Assembly: GCA_036396535.1 (NCBI GenBank)
Contig: DASWKR010000065.1
Span: 1-64,000 of the forward strand
Source of the DNA: Acidimicrobiia bacterium
GTDB lineage: Bacteria; Actinomycetota; Acidimicrobiia; Spongiisociales; UBA5794
DNA length: 64,000 bases
Direction: 5' to 3'
This document shows, piece by piece, positions 10,363 to 54,406 of this stretch. Within the stretch, counting starts at the first letter, position 1, and each line of letters begins with the position of its first letter. The notes under the pieces were generated by a model that saw only the letters and a list, made by a program, of their open reading frames with translations, was not told the origin of the DNA and ran no database searches. The translations under genes were made by a program, and so were the position numbers.

Positions 10363-12398
10363 GCCGCCCCTCGTTGCCTGCCCTCGTCCGGCGGCGGCTC
10401 CTCTGGTGGTGGCTCCGTGTAGTGGCCGACTCGCAAGGTGATGGTCGTGCCTGCATCGACGAGATCGCCCGAGTGGGTCTGACTCTGGACGACTCCGTCC
10501 TGGGCGGGGTCCTCCACCTCGATGTCGTCGCCGCGCCTCACCGTCAGCCCGGCTTCCTCGAGAGCGTTCTTGGCGTTCTGGTACGACGAGCCGACCACGT
10601 CGGGCACCCGGACGGGACAGGTCGCCGTCGACTCAGGCATCTTGCACGGATGGACGTGCAGAATGGTCGGTGCCGCCCGGTACGTCCACGTGAAGGTCTC
10701 GTCTTCCGTGGTTCCATCGGGATGGGTGATCCGCCTGACGACCGAGTTGGTGAATCCGGTCGTGCCGCTCTGCTCGGTGATGGTGGTGTCGGGGTCCAAG
10801 GCGGGATCGGCGATGTACTCGACCTCCGACTCGACGATGTTGCTGCGTTCGCCCAGCCTGCGCTCGCAGGTCTTCCCCCCGTTGTTGCCGTAGAACGACA
10901 CGGTGATCGACGTCGCCGTGGCCGAGGTCTTGATGATGACGACGGCGTCGCTGTTGTTGCGAAAGCTCAGATCGGGGGAGGGCCACGAGATGGTCGCCTC
11001 GTTCACCTCGGGATACCTGCTGAAGTAGTAGCTGTGGGGCTTGTGCTCGACGTCCTCCATGCAGGAGTAGAAGATGGCGTTGAACATCGTGGTGGCGAAC
11101 TGACTAACGCCACCCCCGATGGCATCCTCGAACTCACCCCTGAGGATCTGCGGCGCCGCCACGTAGCCCTTGTCCTCCGTGCGTGGCCCGACGAACTCGT
11201 TCAGCGAGAACGTCTCGCCGGGGAACACGACGGCGTTGTCGACGAAGTCGGCCATGACGTGGATGTTGGTCACCCGCGGCTGCCCCGCCGGGTACTCGGT
11301 GTGGCCGCGCCCGAGCTGTGTGATGGGCTGCATAGCTTCCGCTGCCTCGGTCGTCAGCCGCGGCTCCTTGCCTTCCTTGAACGGGAACTCGCCCTCTCCG
11401 GTCCGGGTTCTGGCGATGACGGAGACCCGATCGGTGACGAGGTCCATGTCGAGGACCGTCTCGGAGCGGCCGGGGAGGAGCGTGGCGGAGCCGTCGGAGT
11501 TGATGGCGAAGCGGGCGTCGCGCGGCGGCTGCTCGATCTGGTCGCGCAGCGGTTCGATGACGGGCAGCAACATCTCCGGGTCGAGCCCGAACTCGATGCG
11601 CGTCGGGCTGTTCGACGTCACTTCGCTGTGGAAGGCGGAGGCGAGCTGCTCCGGGGTGAACGCCACCTCGACCTCGGGGTCGTCGCCGCGCAGGACGACG
11701 GCTGAGTCGATCAGGTCGTTGGCATCGGCGGCGGCGGCGTCGATGTCCTCGTCGGTGAGCGTCGGCACGAGCGGCGTGACCGGCAGCGTCGCCGGCGTGC
11801 GGGGTATCGAGGCGATCAGCGTTTGTGCGATGTCGATGGCGGCTGTGTTGTCGATGCCCTCCCCCGTGCGCGGGTACCGAGGAACGATGATGCCTCCGTC
11901 GAGCTCGAGTCCCCCCTCGAATGCCGGATTGGCGATCGCCTCCTGCTCCCAGACGTCGAGCAGGCCCACGAAGGCTTCGTGGTCGAAGGTGACCGGGACC
12001 TCGAGCTCGATCTCGTCGGAGAGAGTGCCGAACCATCCGAACATCTGCGACAGCAGCCCCTCCTGGCGACGCTGTTCGAGCGCCTCGGCGGCGATGGCGT
12101 CCTCGTCGATGTCGAGCCCGATGATCGCCGGCTCGATCGGGAACTGGCGCCCGGCCACCACGAATGTCGCCAGAGTCCCGGCCAGCTCCCTCTCATGGGC
12201 TTGCAGGGCAGCGACCGCATCGTCCTCGCCCAGCCCACCGAGCTGCACCCCGGCGGCGCTCACGTTCCGTGCCACCTCGCCGTTCGACCTGGCGATGTCG
12301 ATTCCGATGAAGGCGACGACGAGCAGCACCAACCCGACCGGGACGGCCGCGAGCAGCGCTCGTTGGTTCTTGCTCAATGAGACTCCGGAAAGTGGCAT
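10347..12398 (-). CDS. VanW-family cell-envelope protein with C-terminal PASTA domain
   Basis: The 683-residue protein has an N-terminal membrane anchor (about 13-35) and a YoaR-like putative peptidoglycan-binding region. The VanW domain spans about 365-500: GETFSLNEFVGPRTEDKGY, then GGGVSQFATTMFNAIFYS and HSYYFSRYP. A G5-like or linker region follows, then a PASTA domain near the C-terminus (RVPDVVGSSYQNAKNALEEA). The tail is rich in Pro and Glu. PASTA domains bind peptidoglycan, and VanW proteins occur in envelope and glycopeptide-resistance contexts with unknown chemistry. No van genes are nearby, so a general wall role is likelier. Confidence 0.85.
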   Translation of the reverse strand: MPLSGVSLSKNQRALLAAVPVGLVLLVVAFIGIDIARSNGEVARNVSAAGVQLGGLGEDDAVAALQAHERELAGTLATFVVAGRQFPIEPAIIGLDIDEDAIAAEALEQRRQEGLLSQMFGWFGTLSDEIELEVPVTFDHEAFVGLLDVWEQEAIANPAFEGGLELDGGIIVPRYPRTGEGIDNTAAIDIAQTLIASIPRTPATLPVTPLVPTLTDEDIDAAAADANDLIDSAVVLRGDDPEVEVAFTPEQLASAFHSEVTSNSPTRIEFGLDPEMLLPVIEPLRDQIEQPPRDARFAINSDGSATLLPGRSETVLDMDLVTDRVSVIARTRTGEGEFPFKEGKEPRLTTEAAEAMQPITQLGRGHTEYPAGQPRVTNIHVMADFVDNAVVFPGETFSLNEFVGPRTEDKGYVAAPQILRGEFEDAIGGGVSQFATTMFNAIFYSCMEDVEHKPHSYYFSRYPEVNEATISWPSPDLSFRNNSDAVVIIKTSATATSITVSFYGNNGGKTCERRLGERSNIVESEVEYIADPALDPDTTITEQSGTTGFTNSVVRRITHPDGTTEDETFTWTYRAAPTILHVHPCKMPESTATCPVRVPDVVGSSYQNAKNALEEAGLTVRRGDDIEVEDPAQDGVVQSQTHSGDLVDAGTTITLRVGHYTEPPPEEPPPDEGRQRGAAHSPL

Positions 12399-12550
12399 GT
12401 GCTTTCGGGGTGATCGAACCGACGCGACGCGATCCCTCGTCCGTCGCCGACTCTCGGCAGAAGTGTAATGCGGCCTGGTGCTACACGAGTTTCACGTCGG
12501 TGAGCCAGTTCACCGTCTTTGTGTCGCGACCGACCGATACGATCGACGGC

Positions 12551-13318
12551 GTGATCGACTTCCCGGCCGTCGAGGACGGCGAGCCCATCGTCGTATCGGC
12601 CACGTCGTACGTGGCGTTCGCCAACTGCCCGGACCAGGCGCTCGCCCGGCTTCGCGGCGAGTACCCGGCGGACTCGACGGTGTCGTTCCGGGGCGGGCTG
12701 GCCCACCGCGTCTTCGCCCGGCATCTCGAATCGGGCCCGATCGGCGACGACGAGCTCGCCCAGGTGTGCCGCGAGGAGATCGGCCAAGCGATGAATCAGA
12801 AGATCGTGTCACTGGCGATGCGGCCGAGCAAGCTGAACGCCGTCATCGCCGAGGTGGGCGAGCTGTATGCGACGTTCAAGCGCCTCTCCTCGGAGGGATT
12901 CGAACAGGCCGAGGTGTTCATCGAGATCGAGCCGGCACCGGGCGTGACGCTGCGCGGCTCGATCGACGCCGTGTTCGCCGGCGACGGACAACCGCGCATC
13001 GTCGACTGGAAGACCGGCATGCTCGGGGCGGCGCAGCACCAACTGGCGTTCTACGCCTTGCTGTGGACGCTCGACCGTGGCGAGCTCCCCTCGCTCGTGG
13101 AGGCCGTCTCCGTCGCAACCGGCGAGCGGCATGCCGAGCGGCCGACCAGGCATGACGTCGAGCGAACGGCTGCGTCCGTCGCCGACATGGTGTCGAGGCA
13201 ACGCACGGCGCTTGCCGCCGACGGCTGGATCGACCGGATCGCAGGGGGCTGGTGTCGATTCTGCCCCATCCTGGCCACCTGCGAGGAGGGGACGAGCGCC
13301 GCCGCGATCTGGGAGTGA
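12551..13318 (+). CDS. PD-(D/E)XK nuclease of the RecB family, probable Fe-S protein
   Basis: The protein of about 255 residues has the RecB/Cas4-like core GSIDAVFAGDGQPRIVDWKTG (about 136-156, read in parts), with catalytic D, D and K, and a downstream QLAFYALLWTL helix carrying the QxxxY-like motif. A lone Cys near the N-terminus (ANCPDQ) and CRFCPILATC near the C-terminus form the four-Cys arrangement that holds an Fe-S cluster in AddB and Cas4 nucleases. TACGAT at 12538-12543 precedes the GTG start by 7 nt. No Cas, AddA or RecBCD partner is nearby, so its substrate is unknown. Confidence 0.82.
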   Translation: MIDFPAVEDGEPIVVSATSYVAFANCPDQALARLRGEYPADSTVSFRGGLAHRVFARHLESGPIGDDELAQVCREEIGQAMNQKIVSLAMRPSKLNAVIAEVGELYATFKRLSSEGFEQAEVFIEIEPAPGVTLRGSIDAVFAGDGQPRIVDWKTGMLGAAQHQLAFYALLWTLDRGELPSLVEAVSVATGERHAERPTRHDVERTAASVADMVSRQRTALAADGWIDRIAGGWCRFCPILATCEEGTSAAAIWE

Positions 13319-47938: not shown

Positions 47939-48036
47939 CGGACGGCTCAGCGAAACGCCTCGTGCCGCCCGGCCGCCCGCGGCCGTCTTCCGCGTAGAAC
48001 GCCTTCCTGTCACACCCCGTCGGTACCATCGGCCAC

Positions 48037-48993
48037 ATGGCTAGATTGCACGTCGAGGGGTGGGCGCCTGAGTACGGCAACCCGTTCGACCCCGATCCCG
48101 AGCTGCTCGACGAGACGAAGGTCGACGAGGCCGTCGAGATAGCCGGGCGATGGGACCCGATCGACGGACAGGACGACGGCGTCGAGGTGATCGCCTTCGT
48201 CGACGGAGTGCGTCGGGTCGACGCTCGGCTCGTCCTCGACGATACCTCCGGCCCGGTCCCGGGAATCTGCGGGTCGTTCGGCGTCGGAGCCGTGCTCTGG
48301 GACCGCGCCCGGGAGATCTCCGAGTTCGAGTCGTGCCTCGTTCACCGGCTGGCCCTCTTCGGCTCCGGGAGGGGCCACCCCTTCCCACCCGTCTCGCCGG
48401 AGCTGACGTACTCCAGCGAGTCGGTCGCCGAGTCCGATCCGGCTGCATTGATCCAGCGCTTCCACGGGGCGATGCGCAAGGCCGAGGCGGTGCTGTCCGA
48501 GCGGCTCGCCCAGCAAGGGCTCTTCGTCGTCGCCGACGGTCCCATCAACGACCTGTCGGCGACCGAGAAGGTGGGCTACATCAAGACCCACCGGGCGCCC
48601 TACCTCTCGGAGGTGGCTCTTCCCGTCGTGGGGCGCTTGCGCGCCGGCCAGAGGACCCCCCTCTTCCTCATCGGTGCAGGGGGCGCCTACCCGCGCTACT
48701 CGTGGTACTTCAAGCTCGCCGACCTGCCGGGCGGTCACTCGTGGACGGGCGTCGTGCGCGGGGAGCTCTCGAGCCACCTCGATCTGGCGACGGCCGTCAA
48801 CGTCGCCAACCGGGCGACGGCTGTGCTCCCGCTCGTGGGGTCGCAGCCGCACCGGGACCCGAGAGCGCCGCAGAACCTCGTTCCGATAGCCGCCCTCGAG
48901 CGCCGGCTGCGCCGGCTCCTCGGTGATGGGACATTCGTGCACCGCCAGCTACGGTCTGCAGTGATGCGCGACCTCGCAGGATCGGGGCGATGA
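48037..48993 (+). CDS. nurA: NurA-like nuclease of an end-resection operon
   Basis: The 318-residue protein has the NurA-domain layout. An N-terminal VEVIAFVDGVRRVDARLV carries an active-site-like Asp56 in the DG motif. QGLFVVADGPINDLS carries Asp167, and downstream are ATEKVGYIKTH and PRYSWYFKLADLPGGHSW. NurA is a 5'-3' nuclease that acts with HerA in archaea. TACCAT at 48024-48029 is 7 nt before the ATG. It overlaps the HerA-like gene by 4 bp (ATGA) and heads a four-gene operon with sbcD and sbcC. The resemblance is by motif and context and is not proven by alignment. Confidence 0.75.
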   Translation: MARLHVEGWAPEYGNPFDPDPELLDETKVDEAVEIAGRWDPIDGQDDGVEVIAFVDGVRRVDARLVLDDTSGPVPGICGSFGVGAVLWDRAREISEFESCLVHRLALFGSGRGHPFPPVSPELTYSSESVAESDPAALIQRFHGAMRKAEAVLSERLAQQGLFVVADGPINDLSATEKVGYIKTHRAPYLSEVALPVVGRLRAGQRTPLFLIGAGGAYPRYSWYFKLADLPGGHSWTGVVRGELSSHLDLATAVNVANRATAVLPLVGSQPHRDPRAPQNLVPIAALERRLRRLLGDGTFVHRQLRSAVMRDLAGSGR

Positions 48994-50726
48994 CCGAGCG
49001 ATCACAGAGCGTCAGCGGCGTCGGCCGCGTCATGGGCGTGCAGCACTCGACGACGAGCGAGTTCCGCGTTGCCCTCGACGACGACGACTATCTCCAGCTC
49101 GACGACCTCGTCGTTGTCCGCACCCAGGTGCCCAAACAGGGGGAGGTGCGCACCTACGGGATCGTCACCGAGGTGGAGGCGAAGCACGAGGGCGCCCAGT
49201 TCGAGAGCGACACCCACCTCATCGGGGCGGGCGTGCTCCCCGGCCAGAAGGTGCGGTCCGCCCAAGTGGCCGTGACGCGGGTCGAGCCCGAGATCTGGGT
49301 AGCCCCCGACCCGGGGGAGATCGTCGAGCGGGCGTCCGGCGAAGCCAGGGAGAAGGCCCTCTACGTCGACGAGATGGCCCGCCCGCTCCCCATCGGCATC
49401 GGCAGGGACGGCGAGCCCGCCTACATCGACCTCGACTTTTTCGACGGACGCAAGGGCGGGCACATGTCCATCAGCGGCATCTCCGGCGTCGCCACCAAGA
49501 CGTCGTTCGCTCTGTTCTTCCTGCGGCTGCTGAGCGGCAGGCCCGACGTCGTCGGGGAGGGAGCCGCCAACCTTCGGGTGCTCGTGTTCAACGTGAAGGG
49601 CGAGGACCTGCTGTGGTTGGACAAGCAGAACAAGTACTTCGACGACGACGCCGCCCTCCGCTGGGAGCGGCTCGGTGTGTCGCCTGCTCCGTTCCCGTCC
49701 GTCTCGTTCTGGGCGCCCCCGGCGGCGCGCAGCGGCGACGTCGTCGTCCCGGACACGGGAGGGAGGCAGGTCGGTGTCGACGCCTTCGCCTGGACCCCGC
49801 GCGAGTTCGTCGAGGAGGGTTTGCTGCGGTTCTTGTTCACCGACTCGAACGACGCCCGCAACCAGATCCCGTTCATCGAAGAGCGGGTTCGCTCACAGCT
49901 GGCCAGGTACTCCGTCGACGTGGCCGGCGAGCCCGGCGCCGTCGTTCTCCGAGACCCGGCAGAGGGCCACAAACCGGGCGAGTTCGTCGGCCCGAACAAG
50001 GGCGAGCGGGTGATCCGCGACCTACGCGGCCTGGTCGAGGCGATCGAGGAGTTCGTCGAGCCGGAGGATCACGAACCGGACCAGCGGTGGACGGGACGAG
50101 CCCAGGTCGGGACCATCTCGGCGTTCATGCGGCGCCTCCATGCCGCTGCGCACCGGCTCGGGCATCTCGTGAGGGCCGGCGAGAGCCGCCGCATCGACCG
50201 CCGGGCATCCCAGGTGACCGTCGTGGCGATCCAATCGCTGCACGACCTCGGGCAGCGGTTCGTCGTCGGCGCCCTTCTCGCCGAGACGTTCGCCGAGAAG
50301 GAGCAGACGGGCCAGCGCCTCCCGCTGTCTGTGATCGTCCTCGACGAGTTGAACAAGTACGCCCCCCGCGAAGGAGCCAGTCCACTGAAGGACATGCTCA
50401 TCGACATCGCCCAACGGGGCCGGTCGCTCGGTGTGCTCCTCGTCGGCGCCCAGCAGACGGCGAGCCGAGTGGCGCCCGAGGTGATGGAGAACGCCGCCAT
50501 CAAAGTCGCCGGCCGGCTCGACGCAGCCGAGGCGGAACGATCCGAGTACGGGTGGATGCTGCCGTCGACCCGGGCGAGGGCACGCCTGCTCAAGCCGGGC
50601 ACGATGGTCGTCAGCCAGCCGGCGATCCCGGTCCCCCTCGTGCTCGACTTCCCGTTCCCACCATGGGCGACACGCAAGGAAGAGGTCGCCGAGGGGAGTG
50701 ACGGCGACCCGTTCCGCGGCCTGTGA
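48990..50726 (+). CDS. herA: HerA-like hexameric DNA translocase with variant P-loop
   Basis: The 578-residue protein has an N-terminal HAS-type beta barrel (GVGRVMGVQHSTTSEFRVAL, then YGIVTEVEAKHEG). A FtsK/HerA-like ATPase core follows. The Walker A region reads SISGISGVATKTS (about 160-172), with Lys170-Thr171, and differs from the usual GxTGSGKS. Walker B is VIVLDELNKYAP with Asp452 and Glu453. QRGRSLGVLLVGAQQTASRV and the Arg-rich C-terminal sensor region follow. HerA translocates DNA and powers NurA in end processing. It lies between the NurA-like and SbcD genes, all on one strand. Confidence 0.83.
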   Translation: MTERSQSVSGVGRVMGVQHSTTSEFRVALDDDDYLQLDDLVVVRTQVPKQGEVRTYGIVTEVEAKHEGAQFESDTHLIGAGVLPGQKVRSAQVAVTRVEPEIWVAPDPGEIVERASGEAREKALYVDEMARPLPIGIGRDGEPAYIDLDFFDGRKGGHMSISGISGVATKTSFALFFLRLLSGRPDVVGEGAANLRVLVFNVKGEDLLWLDKQNKYFDDDAALRWERLGVSPAPFPSVSFWAPPAARSGDVVVPDTGGRQVGVDAFAWTPREFVEEGLLRFLFTDSNDARNQIPFIEERVRSQLARYSVDVAGEPGAVVLRDPAEGHKPGEFVGPNKGERVIRDLRGLVEAIEEFVEPEDHEPDQRWTGRAQVGTISAFMRRLHAAAHRLGHLVRAGESRRIDRRASQVTVVAIQSLHDLGQRFVVGALLAETFAEKEQTGQRLPLSVIVLDELNKYAPREGASPLKDMLIDIAQRGRSLGVLLVGAQQTASRVAPEVMENAAIKVAGRLDAAEAERSEYGWMLPSTRARARLLKPGTMVVSQPAIPVPLVLDFPFPPWATRKEEVAEGSDGDPFRGL

Positions 50727-50736
50727 GGACCGCACT

Positions 50737-51909
50737 ATGAAGGTCCTGCACACCTCGGACTGGCACGTGGGAAAGCGGATCGGGCGGTACGACCGCAGCG
50801 CCGAGTATCGCGAGGTCATCGACGAGGTCGTGGCGATCGCCACCGCAGAGCGAGTCGACCTCGTGCTCCACTCCGGAGACGTCTTCGACCGGCCGATGCC
50901 GCCCGTCGAGGCGCTCCAGATCGCCTTCGATGGCCTCGTGAGCCTCTCGGACGGCGGCCGCAGGCCTGTCGTCGTCATCGCCGGGAACCACGACTCGCCC
51001 GGCTTCTTCGAGGCGCTCGCTCCATTCATGGCGCCGCAGAACATCCATCTCGTCGGCGAGGTCAAGCGGCCTGACGCCGGGGCGGTCATCGAGGTCGAAA
51101 CGGCGGCCGGGCGCGCCGTGATCAGCTGCTTCCCGTTCCTCAGGGAGGGGAGGGTCGTCGACTTCCTGGCAGAGGCCGACGAGTGGTACAAGCACTACGC
51201 CGACCGTCTGCGCCGCATCTCCGAAGCGTATGCGACGAAGGCGGCCGAGCTGGCAGGGGCGGACGCCGTGACGTTCCTCCTCGCCCACTTCCTCGTCGGG
51301 GGCGTCAAGGTCCACGGGCACGGCGCCCCGCGCGGCGAGCGCCAGCTCCACATGGGCGAGGCATACGCGGCGACGCCTGAGGCGATCCCCCCGGGGCCGC
51401 AGTACGTGGCGCTCGGGCACATCCACGCTCCCCAACCGGTACCGGGAGCGAAGGTCCCGGCCGAGTATGCCGGTTCGCTCCTCGAGCTCGACTTCGGCGA
51501 GGCAGGCGAGAAGAAGCGGGTCGTCGTCGTCGACGCCGAGCCGGGGCTACCCGCCAAGGTCAAGTCGATACAGCTCACGAAGGGCAGACGGCTCGTGCGC
51601 GCCAGCGGAGGGTGGCAGGACCTGCTCGTCCGCGACGACCTCAGGGAGGCGTACCTCGACCTGACCGTCGACACCGCCGGACCAGACCCCGGGCTCGCCG
51701 ACAGGGCCCGCACCGAGTACGACTACCTCGTCAAGGTCCGGGCGGAGTACCCGCGCCTGGAGCAGAGCTCGGGAGCCGCTCATGAGGCCCGCTCGCTCGA
51801 GGAGCTCTACGCCGACTTCCACGCCGACCGTCACGGGATCGCCGCAGACGAGCTCACCCTCGAGCTGTTCCGCGACATCATGGAAGAGGCGGCCGGTGCG
51901 CCCGCTTGA
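50737..51909 (+). CDS. sbcD: SbcD (Mre11-type) nuclease
   Basis: The 390-residue calcineurin-fold nuclease has all phosphoesterase motifs: LHTSDWHVGKRIG, LVLHSGDVFDRP, VVIAGNHDSPGFF, and ALGHIHAPQPVPG. It is the nuclease of the SbcCD/Mre11-Rad50 complex, which opens hairpins and trims protein-blocked DNA ends. It starts 10 bp after the HerA-like gene and overlaps sbcC by 14 bp. The C-terminal capping region ends in an acidic helix, which is the likely SbcC contact. Confidence 0.95.
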   Translation: MKVLHTSDWHVGKRIGRYDRSAEYREVIDEVVAIATAERVDLVLHSGDVFDRPMPPVEALQIAFDGLVSLSDGGRRPVVVIAGNHDSPGFFEALAPFMAPQNIHLVGEVKRPDAGAVIEVETAAGRAVISCFPFLREGRVVDFLAEADEWYKHYADRLRRISEAYATKAAELAGADAVTFLLAHFLVGGVKVHGHGAPRGERQLHMGEAYAATPEAIPPGPQYVALGHIHAPQPVPGAKVPAEYAGSLLELDFGEAGEKKRVVVVDAEPGLPAKVKSIQLTKGRRLVRASGGWQDLLVRDDLREAYLDLTVDTAGPDPGLADRARTEYDYLVKVRAEYPRLEQSSGAAHEARSLEELYADFHADRHGIAADELTLELFRDIMEEAAGAPA

Positions 51910-54406
51910 GCTGCGGATCGCCAACTTCCGCTCGTACTTCGGGGCGCCCGTCGTGTTCGACTTCCGGGGGAGGCGCCTCACCGGCATCGTCGGGCCGATC
52001 GGAAGCGGGAAGTCTTCCATACTCGACGCCGTCTCCTTCGCCCTGTACGGGCGGACCTCGACGATCGCCGGAGCCACGAAGTCGCTGATCCATCAGCGTG
52101 CCGACGGGGCGACGGTCGCCCTTCGGTTCGAGGTCGACGGGGAGGTGTGGCAGGTGATGCGCGCCCCGCGGCGCAAGGGTCAGAGCCAGCACGCCCTCGT
52201 CCACCTCGCAGCAGACGCCGACGACGCCGAGGAGCTGCAACGGGTCGTCCTCGAGGCGGACGTCAATGCCAAGGTGATCGAACTGCTCGGGCTCGAGTTC
52301 GATGCCTTCTCCCGCTCCGTCCTCCTGGCGCAAGGCCGGTTCGCCGAGTTCCTCTCGTCGCAGCCGGCGGAGCGCGACCGTGTCCTCAAGGGCGTCTTCG
52401 GGCACGATCGAATCGACGCCATGCGCGAGGTCGCCAAGGAGCACGTGCGAGCCGAGTCCGCCGAGCTCGACAGGCTCGCCGGCAGGCTCGATCAGCTCGC
52501 CCGCCTCGAGCAGCGCCTCGTCGAGAACCGTGCCGCCATCCTCGATCTCGACGAGCGCATCGAGCGCCTCCAGAAGGCTGAGCCGGCTTTCGTCGACCTC
52601 GACGAGCGGGAAGCGACCGCCAGGGCGGCAGGGGAGTCGGCACGCAAGCGCCTCGATGAGGTGGCCGCCCATGCCGTCAGGCTGCCTTCGGATGACGTCG
52701 TCGCCGGACAGATCGCCGAGGCGGAGGAGGCAGGGGCCAAACGCGCCGAGCTGGCGTCACGGCTGGACGAGGCGCAGGCCACGCTCGTCGAGGCCGAGCA
52801 GGCGGTCGAGGACGCCGAGCTGGCGGGATCGGCAGAGACCATCGAGCAGGCGGGCGCGGCGCTCGCCAGGCGCCAAGCGGCGCTCACACGGGTCAAGGAG
52901 ATCGAGGCGAAGCTCGCCGAGCTCGTCGAGACGGAAGCGGCTGCTTCCCGGGAGGGGAAGCGTACCGCCGCCTCACAGGCGAAGGCCGCCGCCCGGGTCG
53001 AGTCGACGGCGGCATCCCTGGCGGAGGCGTCGAACGCCCGCCAGGCGGCGGAGGGGCGCGCCCGGGAGGCTCGCCACCTCGACATGGCGGATGCACTCCG
53101 TGCGGGCCTCGAGCCGGGCCACCTGTGCCCCGTGTGCCGCCAGGCCGTCCATGAGGTGCCCCCGCAGAGTGGCAGTGCGCTCGCCGCTGCCGAGCGAGCA
53201 CTCGTCGAGGCGGGCGAGCGCCATGTTGCCGCTTCCGAAGCGCTGGCCGCCGCCGAGGCCGACGTCTCGGAGGCGCGCGATGCGGCGACGAGGGCCGAGA
53301 TGCTCGCCGCCACCATCGAGGCCGAGGTCGTGGCGTGGCGTCAGCAGCGCGTCGCGGCCGAGGCGGTCGTCGCCGACATCGACGCCGCGCTGGCCTCCCT
53401 GCTCGGTGACGGGGACGCGGCAGCCCTGCTCGACGAGGCTCGAGCGTCGTTGCGGGCACTGGGCGGCGCGGCGGCCGAGGCACGCAAGGCCCTCGACAGG
53501 GCCAGGGGAGCGCACGACGAGGCGATCGTCGCCGAGCAGACGGCGGGCAGGCAGGTGGCGGAGCTCCGGGTGCTCCTCACGGACATCGCCGCCCGCCTCG
53601 ACACGCAGCTGAGCGCCGCCGAGGGTGCCGCCGGTGTCGCGGCAGCCTTCCTCGAGGTCAAGGCGGCATGGTCGGAGACGGTCGCCACGCTGGGGGAACG
53701 GGTCACCGTTTCGTCCGCCGAGGTCGAGGCGGTCGGCACGGAGAGAGACAGGCTGCGAGGCGAGCTCGACATCGAGAAGGACATCGTCACCGAGTTGGGA
53801 GGGGCCATCGCCCGCTCCAAGCTCCTCGCCGAGCAGATCGACGCCGACGTAGCCGAGGTCGAGGCAGCGAGCGCCCTCGCCACCGAGCGCGAGCTCCTGA
53901 TCGGGCGGATCGCCTCGCTCGAGCGGATCGCCGGTGATCTCACGAACGCCGGGTTCATCCGGTTCCTGCTCGACGACGAGCGGGCAAGGCTCGCCGACCT
54001 CGGCAGCGAGCACTTCCAGCGCCTCTCCTTCGGCCGCTATCGATTCACCGAGGACGGCAAGTTCGACATCGTCGACCTCGCCGCCGCCGACGCGGTGCGG
54101 AAGGCGGACAGCCTCTCGGGCGGGGAGACGTTCGTGGCGTCGCTCGGACTGGCGCTCGCCCTCGCCGAGATGGTGAGCGGCGTCGGCGGAAGGCTCGACG
54201 CCTTCTTCATCGACGAGGGGTTCGGGTCGCTCGACCCGGAGCACCTCGACTTGGCGATGGACGGCATCGAGGCCCTGGCGGCGGGGGAGGGCACGAGGCT
54301 CGTGGTGGTGGTCAGCCACGTGCCGGAGCTGAGACAACGCGTCGAAGACCTCATCGAGCTCGATCGCGACCCCGTCACGGGGGACACGAAAGTCCTCCGC
54401 AGCTGA
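51896..54406 (+). CDS. sbcC: SbcC (Rad50-type) ATPase with zinc hook
   Basis: The 836-residue SMC-like ATPase has the N-terminal Walker A GPIGSGKS at 33-40 and a Q-loop region with LLAQGRFAEFLSS. A long coiled-coil follows, interrupted by the zinc hook CPVC at 411-414. The C-terminal ABC signature DSLSGGETFVASLGLALALA and Walker B FFIDEGFGSLDPEHLD complete the ATPase. It tethers and unwinds DNA ends and gates SbcD. The GTG at 51896 was chosen inside the end of sbcD. The coiled-coil is shorter than in E. coli SbcC (about 1,050 residues). It ends the four-gene operon. Confidence 0.96.
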   Translation: MRPLELRIANFRSYFGAPVVFDFRGRRLTGIVGPIGSGKSSILDAVSFALYGRTSTIAGATKSLIHQRADGATVALRFEVDGEVWQVMRAPRRKGQSQHALVHLAADADDAEELQRVVLEADVNAKVIELLGLEFDAFSRSVLLAQGRFAEFLSSQPAERDRVLKGVFGHDRIDAMREVAKEHVRAESAELDRLAGRLDQLARLEQRLVENRAAILDLDERIERLQKAEPAFVDLDEREATARAAGESARKRLDEVAAHAVRLPSDDVVAGQIAEAEEAGAKRAELASRLDEAQATLVEAEQAVEDAELAGSAETIEQAGAALARRQAALTRVKEIEAKLAELVETEAAASREGKRTAASQAKAAARVESTAASLAEASNARQAAEGRAREARHLDMADALRAGLEPGHLCPVCRQAVHEVPPQSGSALAAAERALVEAGERHVAASEALAAAEADVSEARDAATRAEMLAATIEAEVVAWRQQRVAAEAVVADIDAALASLLGDGDAAALLDEARASLRALGGAAAEARKALDRARGAHDEAIVAEQTAGRQVAELRVLLTDIAARLDTQLSAAEGAAGVAAAFLEVKAAWSETVATLGERVTVSSAEVEAVGTERDRLRGELDIEKDIVTELGGAIARSKLLAEQIDADVAEVEAASALATERELLIGRIASLERIAGDLTNAGFIRFLLDDERARLADLGSEHFQRLSFGRYRFTEDGKFDIVDLAAADAVRKADSLSGGETFVASLGLALALAEMVSGVGGRLDAFFIDEGFGSLDPEHLDLAMDGIEALAAGEGTRLVVVVSHVPELRQRVEDLIELDRDPVTGDTKVLRS

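Follow-up and report, generated by a model that had tools for sequence, protein, structure and literature searches.

A nurA-herA-sbcD-sbcC operon with a damage-type promoter motif in Acidimicrobiia

Introduction

In Sulfolobus and other archaea, the genes for HerA, NurA, Mre11 and Rad50 form a single operon, and it is chiefly from archaea that this set is known. Here we analyse a bacterial counterpart, a nurA-herA-sbcD-sbcC unit at positions 48037-54406 on the forward strand of a 64,000-nucleotide stretch (hereafter the window) of contig DASWKR010000065.1, from the genome of an Acidimicrobiia bacterium (GCA_036396535.1). The unit resembles the archaeal operon in that the same four functions are encoded in one transcription unit, in the NurA fold (2ygk) and in a HerA that combines a HAS-barrel with a RecA-like ATPase. 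It differs in that bacterial SbcD and SbcC replace Mre11 and Rad50, in gene order (nurA-herA-sbcD-sbcC or herA-sbcD-sbcC-nurA), in the Walker A sequence of HerA (GISGVATKTS), in its actinobacterial damage-type promoter motif and in having AdnAB alongside.

Three further systems invite comparison. The NurA-HerA pair of Deinococcus radiodurans (7f6d) comprises the closest solved relatives of both proteins, with the same Walker A variant and the same catalytic D, K and R; a link to SbcCD was left open in that species (PMC4663267), whereas here sbcD and sbcC lie inside the operon. A bacterial unit in which sbcD and sbcC follow nurA and herA has been mentioned before, in one passage of a 2017 paper on Oceanithermus profundus (nurA-hepA-sbcD-sbcC; PMC5448004), but that account concerns one genus of Thermales and contains neither the distribution nor the second gene order, the promoter or the RecBCD-linked alternative described below. 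Mycobacterial AdnAB (6ppj, 6ppr, 6ppu), finally, is likewise a helicase-nuclease for double-strand-break resection and is also encoded in this genome, but it is built from unrelated UvrD-type motor-nucleases and is near-universal in the taxonomic order to which the genome belongs, whereas the unit is not.

From comparative sequence analysis we argue that the unit is probably a damage-inducible operon for processing double-strand-break ends, working beside AdnAB and not in its place. A 2023 study placed NurA-HerA in only a few bacteria, such as Deinococcus-Thermus, and called its function controversial (PMC9960219). About one in five genomes sampled from the phylum encodes the pair, culturable Actinoplanes and Micromonospora among them, and here it is nearly always tied to SbcCD and often stands behind a damage-type promoter motif. 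The long-standing question of whether Mre11-Rad50 feeds HerA-NurA, and of what the bacterial complex is for, thus becomes testable in genetically usable mesophilic actinomycetes. Our literature search, which left subscription journals mostly uncovered so that an earlier mention is possible, returned no paper tying NurA and HerA to Acidimicrobiia and none joining PafBC with NurA and HerA. What is new is the apparently leaderless damage-type promoter at the operon head, together with the finding that a second SbcCD type in the class shares an operon with RecBCD.

Results and Discussion

Four products of one unit

The four open reading frames are co-directional and closely packed: nurA (48037-48993, 318 amino acids) and herA (48990-50726, 578 amino acids) share a 4-bp ATGA overlap, 10 bp separate herA from sbcD (the mre11 homologue, 50737-51909, 390 amino acids), and sbcC (the rad50 homologue, 51896-54406, 836 amino acids, GTG start) overlaps sbcD by 14 bp. 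This is exactly the layout reported in the initial annotation, which had also named the four products and likened the unit to the archaeal operon. The names hold up against matches in PDB and NCBIfam and against the predicted fold of NurA, and so does the likeness, with all four genes running in the same direction and kept in relatives. That the first gene might encode an unrelated fold, or that the four-gene order might be peculiar to this contig, would have spoken against the comparison; instead, the first product is a NurA by sequence as well as by fold, and relatives keep the order, which rules out uniqueness to the contig.

For NurA, a phmmer search of PDB sequences recovered D. radiodurans NurA (7f6d_H, E=1.1e-23) and Thermotoga TM1739 (1zup, E=3e-8). 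An AlphaFold2 model (pLDDT 88.6) has the RNase H-like NurA fold that family membership demands, and its top Foldseek matches are Deinococcus NurA (7f6d_G, E=8.5e-18), 1zup and then Sulfolobus NurA (2ygk). Mutating D53, K201 or R309 of the Deinococcus protein to alanine abolishes nuclease activity (PMC9960219); in an alignment with the PDB match, D56, K183 and R276 are the corresponding residues here and, together with E150, D167 and H272, they are invariant across 12 diverse homologues. The Pfam NurA model PF09376, by contrast, scores this protein at 13.2 bits (E=0.064), below its gathering score of 21, which is a detection threshold and not a biological trait, and it found no match in a scan of the whole genome. 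Because fold and PDB matches identify the protein as NurA, we take this branch of the family to lie outside the coverage of PF09376, and standard annotation therefore overlooks such proteins, often calling them hypothetical. A unit on a Streptomyces plasmid illustrates the point: RefSeq names its products 'ATP-binding protein', 'exonuclease SbcCD subunit D', 'SMC family ATPase' and 'hypothetical protein', the last of which is NurA by profile match. The system is thus hidden from both Pfam and RefSeq naming.

The second product is assigned by its sequence to the HerA translocase family. It matches D. radiodurans HerA (7f6d_B) over residues 6-568, nearly its full length (E=2.3e-121, 409 bits), and has a HAS-barrel, to which the profile match is weak, and a RecA-like core. 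Its Walker A motif is the variant GISGVATKTS (K170, T171), which the alignment also places in Deinococcus HerA, and its Walker B motif reads VIVLDEL (D452, E453); all four of these residues are invariant in 14 homologues. As a separate observation, the phage Marinitoga camini virus 1 has a gene labelled as a HerA helicase (KP836355.1, 38588-39871), which matches distantly, with 32% across half the query.

The remaining two products belong, as judged from their motifs, to the SbcCD (Mre11-Rad50) family, one with phosphoesterase motifs and the other with ABC halves and a zinc hook. SbcD scores 158.9 bits against TIGR00619 (cut-off 77.65) and carries the metal-site motifs D8/H10, SGDVFD, GNHD and GHIH. 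SbcC matches TIGR00618 with E=1.2e-61 but falls under the full-length cut-off (836 amino acids against a model of 1043 positions); its motifs are Walker A GPIGSGKS, a CPVC zinc hook, the signature LSGGE and Walker B DEGFGSLD. Both have PDB matches too.

The unit is inherited as a block

Our class sample comprised 296 genomes of Acidimicrobiia, 95 from the same taxonomic order as the window and 201 from other orders. HerA of this family, full or partial, occurs in 99 of them, NurA in 103 and SbcD of the type found in the unit in 97. HerA and NurA are found together in 96 genomes, and unit-type SbcD never occurs where both are absent (97/97 have HerA or NurA); exceptions to full co-occurrence are mostly fragmented assemblies. 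Across 102 units, pairwise distances for NurA, HerA and SbcD correlate with r=0.88-0.94. In a phylum sample of 246 genomes, NurA of this family occurs in 52, and named bearers of the unit include Actinoplanes, Micromonospora, Streptosporangium, Nocardioides, Pseudonocardia and Thermocatellispora, so that the initial view of the unit as unusual in an actinobacterium has to be abandoned. It is also present in Chloroflexota and in some bins labelled Gemmatimonadota, although bin labels can be wrong.

About 100 genomes keep the four genes together, and they do so in two orders. The order nurA-herA-sbcD-sbcC is found in the clade of the window, in Chloroflexota, in bins labelled Thermoflexus and on a cyanobacterial plasmid; herA-sbcD-sbcC-nurA is found in many Acidimicrobiia and in Actinoplanes, Micromonospora, Streptosporangium and others. 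The tree of unit-type SbcD has two main branches, and these correspond to the two arrangements. All four genes have therefore been kept through a rearrangement, which we regard as strong evidence for a functional link. A fifth conserved gene was considered and rejected: about 13 genomes have a gap between herA and sbcD, and in a sample inspected by eye the inserts seem unrelated to each other or to repair.

Within its own taxonomic order, the unit is flanked by a nucleoside hydrolase gene on one side and a gene for a CaiB-type CoA transferase on the other (both named by eye), or lies in close variants of this setting. In two unit-less genomes of the same family (G117 and G224) the two flanking genes are about 50-100 bp apart, leaving a clean empty site, and the unit occupies the same position in several families. 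Given these two observations, loss of the whole block is the simpler reading of the absences, and on the same grounds we reject the view that the unit is a mobile island, though plasmid copies exist elsewhere. Complete four-gene units are carried by a plasmid of Streptomyces sp. BB1-1-1 and, in the cyanobacterium Sphaerospermopsis, by a conjugative plasmid. Just upstream of the Streptomyces unit lie a TIGR02680/TIGR02678/DUF2397 cluster and an ImmA/IrrE gene.

Plasmid copies and patchy presence might also suggest that HerA and the nucleases constitute an anti-phage defence system and not a repair operon. HerA ATPases are indeed known from defence systems, and PADLOC reports weak matches to mad8 and to HerA models. 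Yet these HerA matches are weak compared with the 409-bit match to Deinococcus HerA, PADLOC finds in the operon no defence partner genes of the kind that define the described HerA anti-phage systems, and a search of 50,697 phage records returned only two HerA matches, both partial and distant. Added to this are the constant position of the unit in several families, the clean empty sites and a promoter motif shared with uvrA, uvrB, dinB and radA. A defence function therefore strikes us as very improbable.

A damage-type promoter motif at the operon head

Directly 5' of nurA, the window reads CTGTCACACCCCGTCGGTACCATCGGCCAC-ATG. This contains a promoter-like motif, TGTCACAC-N8-TACCAT (48008-48029, forward strand), which ends 7 bases 5' of the start codon and is of the form TGTCR-N11-TANNNT; aligned relatives retain this form near the start codon. 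A motif so close to the ATG excludes a leader with a ribosome-binding site, which suggests that the nurA-first transcript is leaderless. In mycobacteria, the PafBC-dependent promoter P1, which responds to damage independently of LexA and RecA, has the consensus tTGTCRgtg-8nt-TannnT (PMC5656591). The motif described here matches the spacing and the upper-case core of that consensus, which is a mycobacterial one, but not its weaker lower-case gtg (cac here).

To describe how the motif is distributed we distinguish a strict form, whose -10 element begins with T or C, from a loose form in which any base is allowed there. The strict form precedes 27/62 nurA-first and 15/36 herA-first units; in the units scanned, it was never found before a second-position herA (in nurA-first units) or a last-position nurA, and rarely before sbcD (1/54 and 3/34). 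Nor does it occur at operon heads with spacers of 7-10, 12, 13 or 15, while a spacer of 14 gave 1 and 3 matches; the spacing is essentially constant. The loose form is present at 43/54 nurA-first units from outside Chloroflexota as opposed to 0/8 from within (p=2e-5; here as elsewhere, Fisher and permutation values ignore relatedness), a split that is expected if the regulator is actinobacterial.

In the genome of the window itself, we count 10 exact occurrences of TGTCRYAC-N8-TANNNT and 1 of a reversed control pattern; when one mismatch is allowed and TAC is required, the counts are 27 and 7. Genes that start just 3' of these sites include, by NCBIfam, uvrB, uvrA, dinB (Pol IV), radA, a Lhr-like helicase, yifB and ybaB. 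Another site accompanies a gene whose LysM product matches YneA below threshold and which lies opposite a protein that by eye reads as LexA, and three of the genes appear, again by eye, to be DUF222/13E12-like. Further matches precede genes without an evident repair role and some are therefore due to chance. Many start codons lie only a few bases 3' of the motif, which suggests leaderless mRNAs at many of these sites. It is likely, on this pattern of neighbours, that the sites mark a LexA-independent damage regulon.

A candidate regulator is encoded in the genome. A tandem pair of WYL proteins, the sole WYL matches present, is followed by tatA/B and tatC. The mycobacterial gene order is pafB-pafC-tatA-tatC, and we predict, with orthology judged by this neighbourhood, that the pair is PafB-PafC.

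A putative role in end processing

The best reading of these data is that the module is damage-induced and accessory in end resection. The PafB-PafC pair would turn the operon on after DNA damage, SbcC-SbcD would open blocked or protein-bound ends, HerA would pump duplex into the NurA dimer, and NurA would trim the 5' strand and leave a 3' tail for RecA. We infer induction, joint action and polarity; biochemical work on the components (PMC9960219, PMC2288612, PMC4351679) suggests preparation of ends by SbcCD and HerA-driven feeding of NurA to yield 3' tails. A single physical complex of all four proteins, as implied by the fused resection machine of the initial annotation, is a more tentative proposition, which we would sooner doubt than expect.

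Several points weigh against an induced role in resection. About a fifth of the nurA-first units from outside Chloroflexota lack even the loose motif, and our Fisher and permutation values leave relatedness out of account. The unit is absent from 26 of the 95 genomes of the same taxonomic order and is therefore dispensable. In Deinococcus, moreover, resection by NurA-HerA is weak and radioresistance barely suffers when the pair is deleted (PMC9960219, PMC4663267), so that the bacterial complex may not be the main resection engine, and a brake or back-up role becomes a live alternative. Imagine that the unit limits recombination by degrading or diverting ends, acting as a brake or as a nuclease against damaged or foreign ends. 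Bacterial NurA-HerA has been proposed to attenuate break repair in vivo (PMC9960219), and the repeated clean absence of the unit would be in keeping with such a function. However, a damage-type promoter motif kept across a change of gene order fits a repair role better, and the Deinococcus complex has no described link to SbcCD. We therefore consider a brake unlikely.

AdnAB, RecBCD and a second type of SbcCD

The initial annotation further held that the unit could replace or assist RecBCD or AdnAB. For this genome replacement fails: the same contig encodes, starting about 11 kb after the window ends, an adjacent AdnB-AdnA-like pair of 1050 and 992 amino acids (contig positions 74767-80840; L005:10767-16840), matching mycobacterial AdnB with E=2e-81 and AdnA with E=9e-39. 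Each protein has a PDDEXK domain; for the AdnA-like protein, Deinococcus UvrD scores slightly above mycobacterial AdnA. With the AdnB of this genome as query, AdnB is found in 93/95 genomes of the same taxonomic order, namely 67/69 with the unit and 26/26 without, and at E<=1e-60 in 0/201 genomes of other orders. Replacement of AdnAB is thereby ruled out for the genome and its order. The distance between AdnB and the unit is within 8-50 kb in several relatives. It is possible that the unit assists AdnAB.

RecC is present in 66/296 genomes of the class. Outside the order of the window, the unit is under-represented in genomes with RecC (3/37 versus 46/164 without; p=0.01, uncorrected for relatedness); this relation is weak, within the order it does not exist, and we reject anti-correlation with RecBCD. 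A weaker SbcD match is found in 24 unit-less genomes, 19 of which have RecC (p=2e-9), and two genomes carry a five-gene operon sbcD-sbcC-recC-recB-recD (G024, L156:6026-18928; G019, L157:5410-18372). Both were confirmed to encode RecC, RecB and RecD, and their SbcD and SbcC were identified by NCBIfam (G024) or by profile match (G019); sbcC and recC are adjacent in further genomes of the class. Unit-type and RecBCD-linked SbcD form separate clades (tree support 100). One genome (G110) carries both types, and another (G123) has a second, partial SbcD match.

These findings bear on whether the four products work together at all. NurA-HerA and SbcCD might be two independent repair enzymes under a common promoter, never acting on the same end and never in contact. 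The common promoter would by itself account for their co-inheritance, SbcCD can evidently partner different motors, given that RecBCD is the neighbour of the second type in the class, and the known partner of D. radiodurans HerA besides NurA is RecJ, a link to SbcCD not having been demonstrated there (PMC4663267). On the other hand, that unit-type SbcD is a clade of its own and never occurs without HerA or NurA suggests specialisation, and an interaction of Mre11 with HerA is known from Sulfolobus acidocaldarius (PMC2288612). We regard independence as a serious contender, which falls somewhat short of an even chance. Taken furthest, joint end processing by the four proteins would amount to a dedicated PafBC-controlled machine of actinobacteria that runs in parallel with AdnAB: a specialised SbcD would hand ends directly to HerA-NurA, the second SbcCD of the class would serve RecBCD, and SbcCD would be an interchangeable front end of two unrelated motors; this broader picture is speculative, and we lean against it.

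Separately from AdnAB, which lies beyond it, the window contains an open reading frame (12377-13318, forward strand) with a strong PDDEXK_1 domain of the RecB nuclease type (4.2e-19), and a further PDDEXK_1 open reading frame lies at contig positions 82682-83407.

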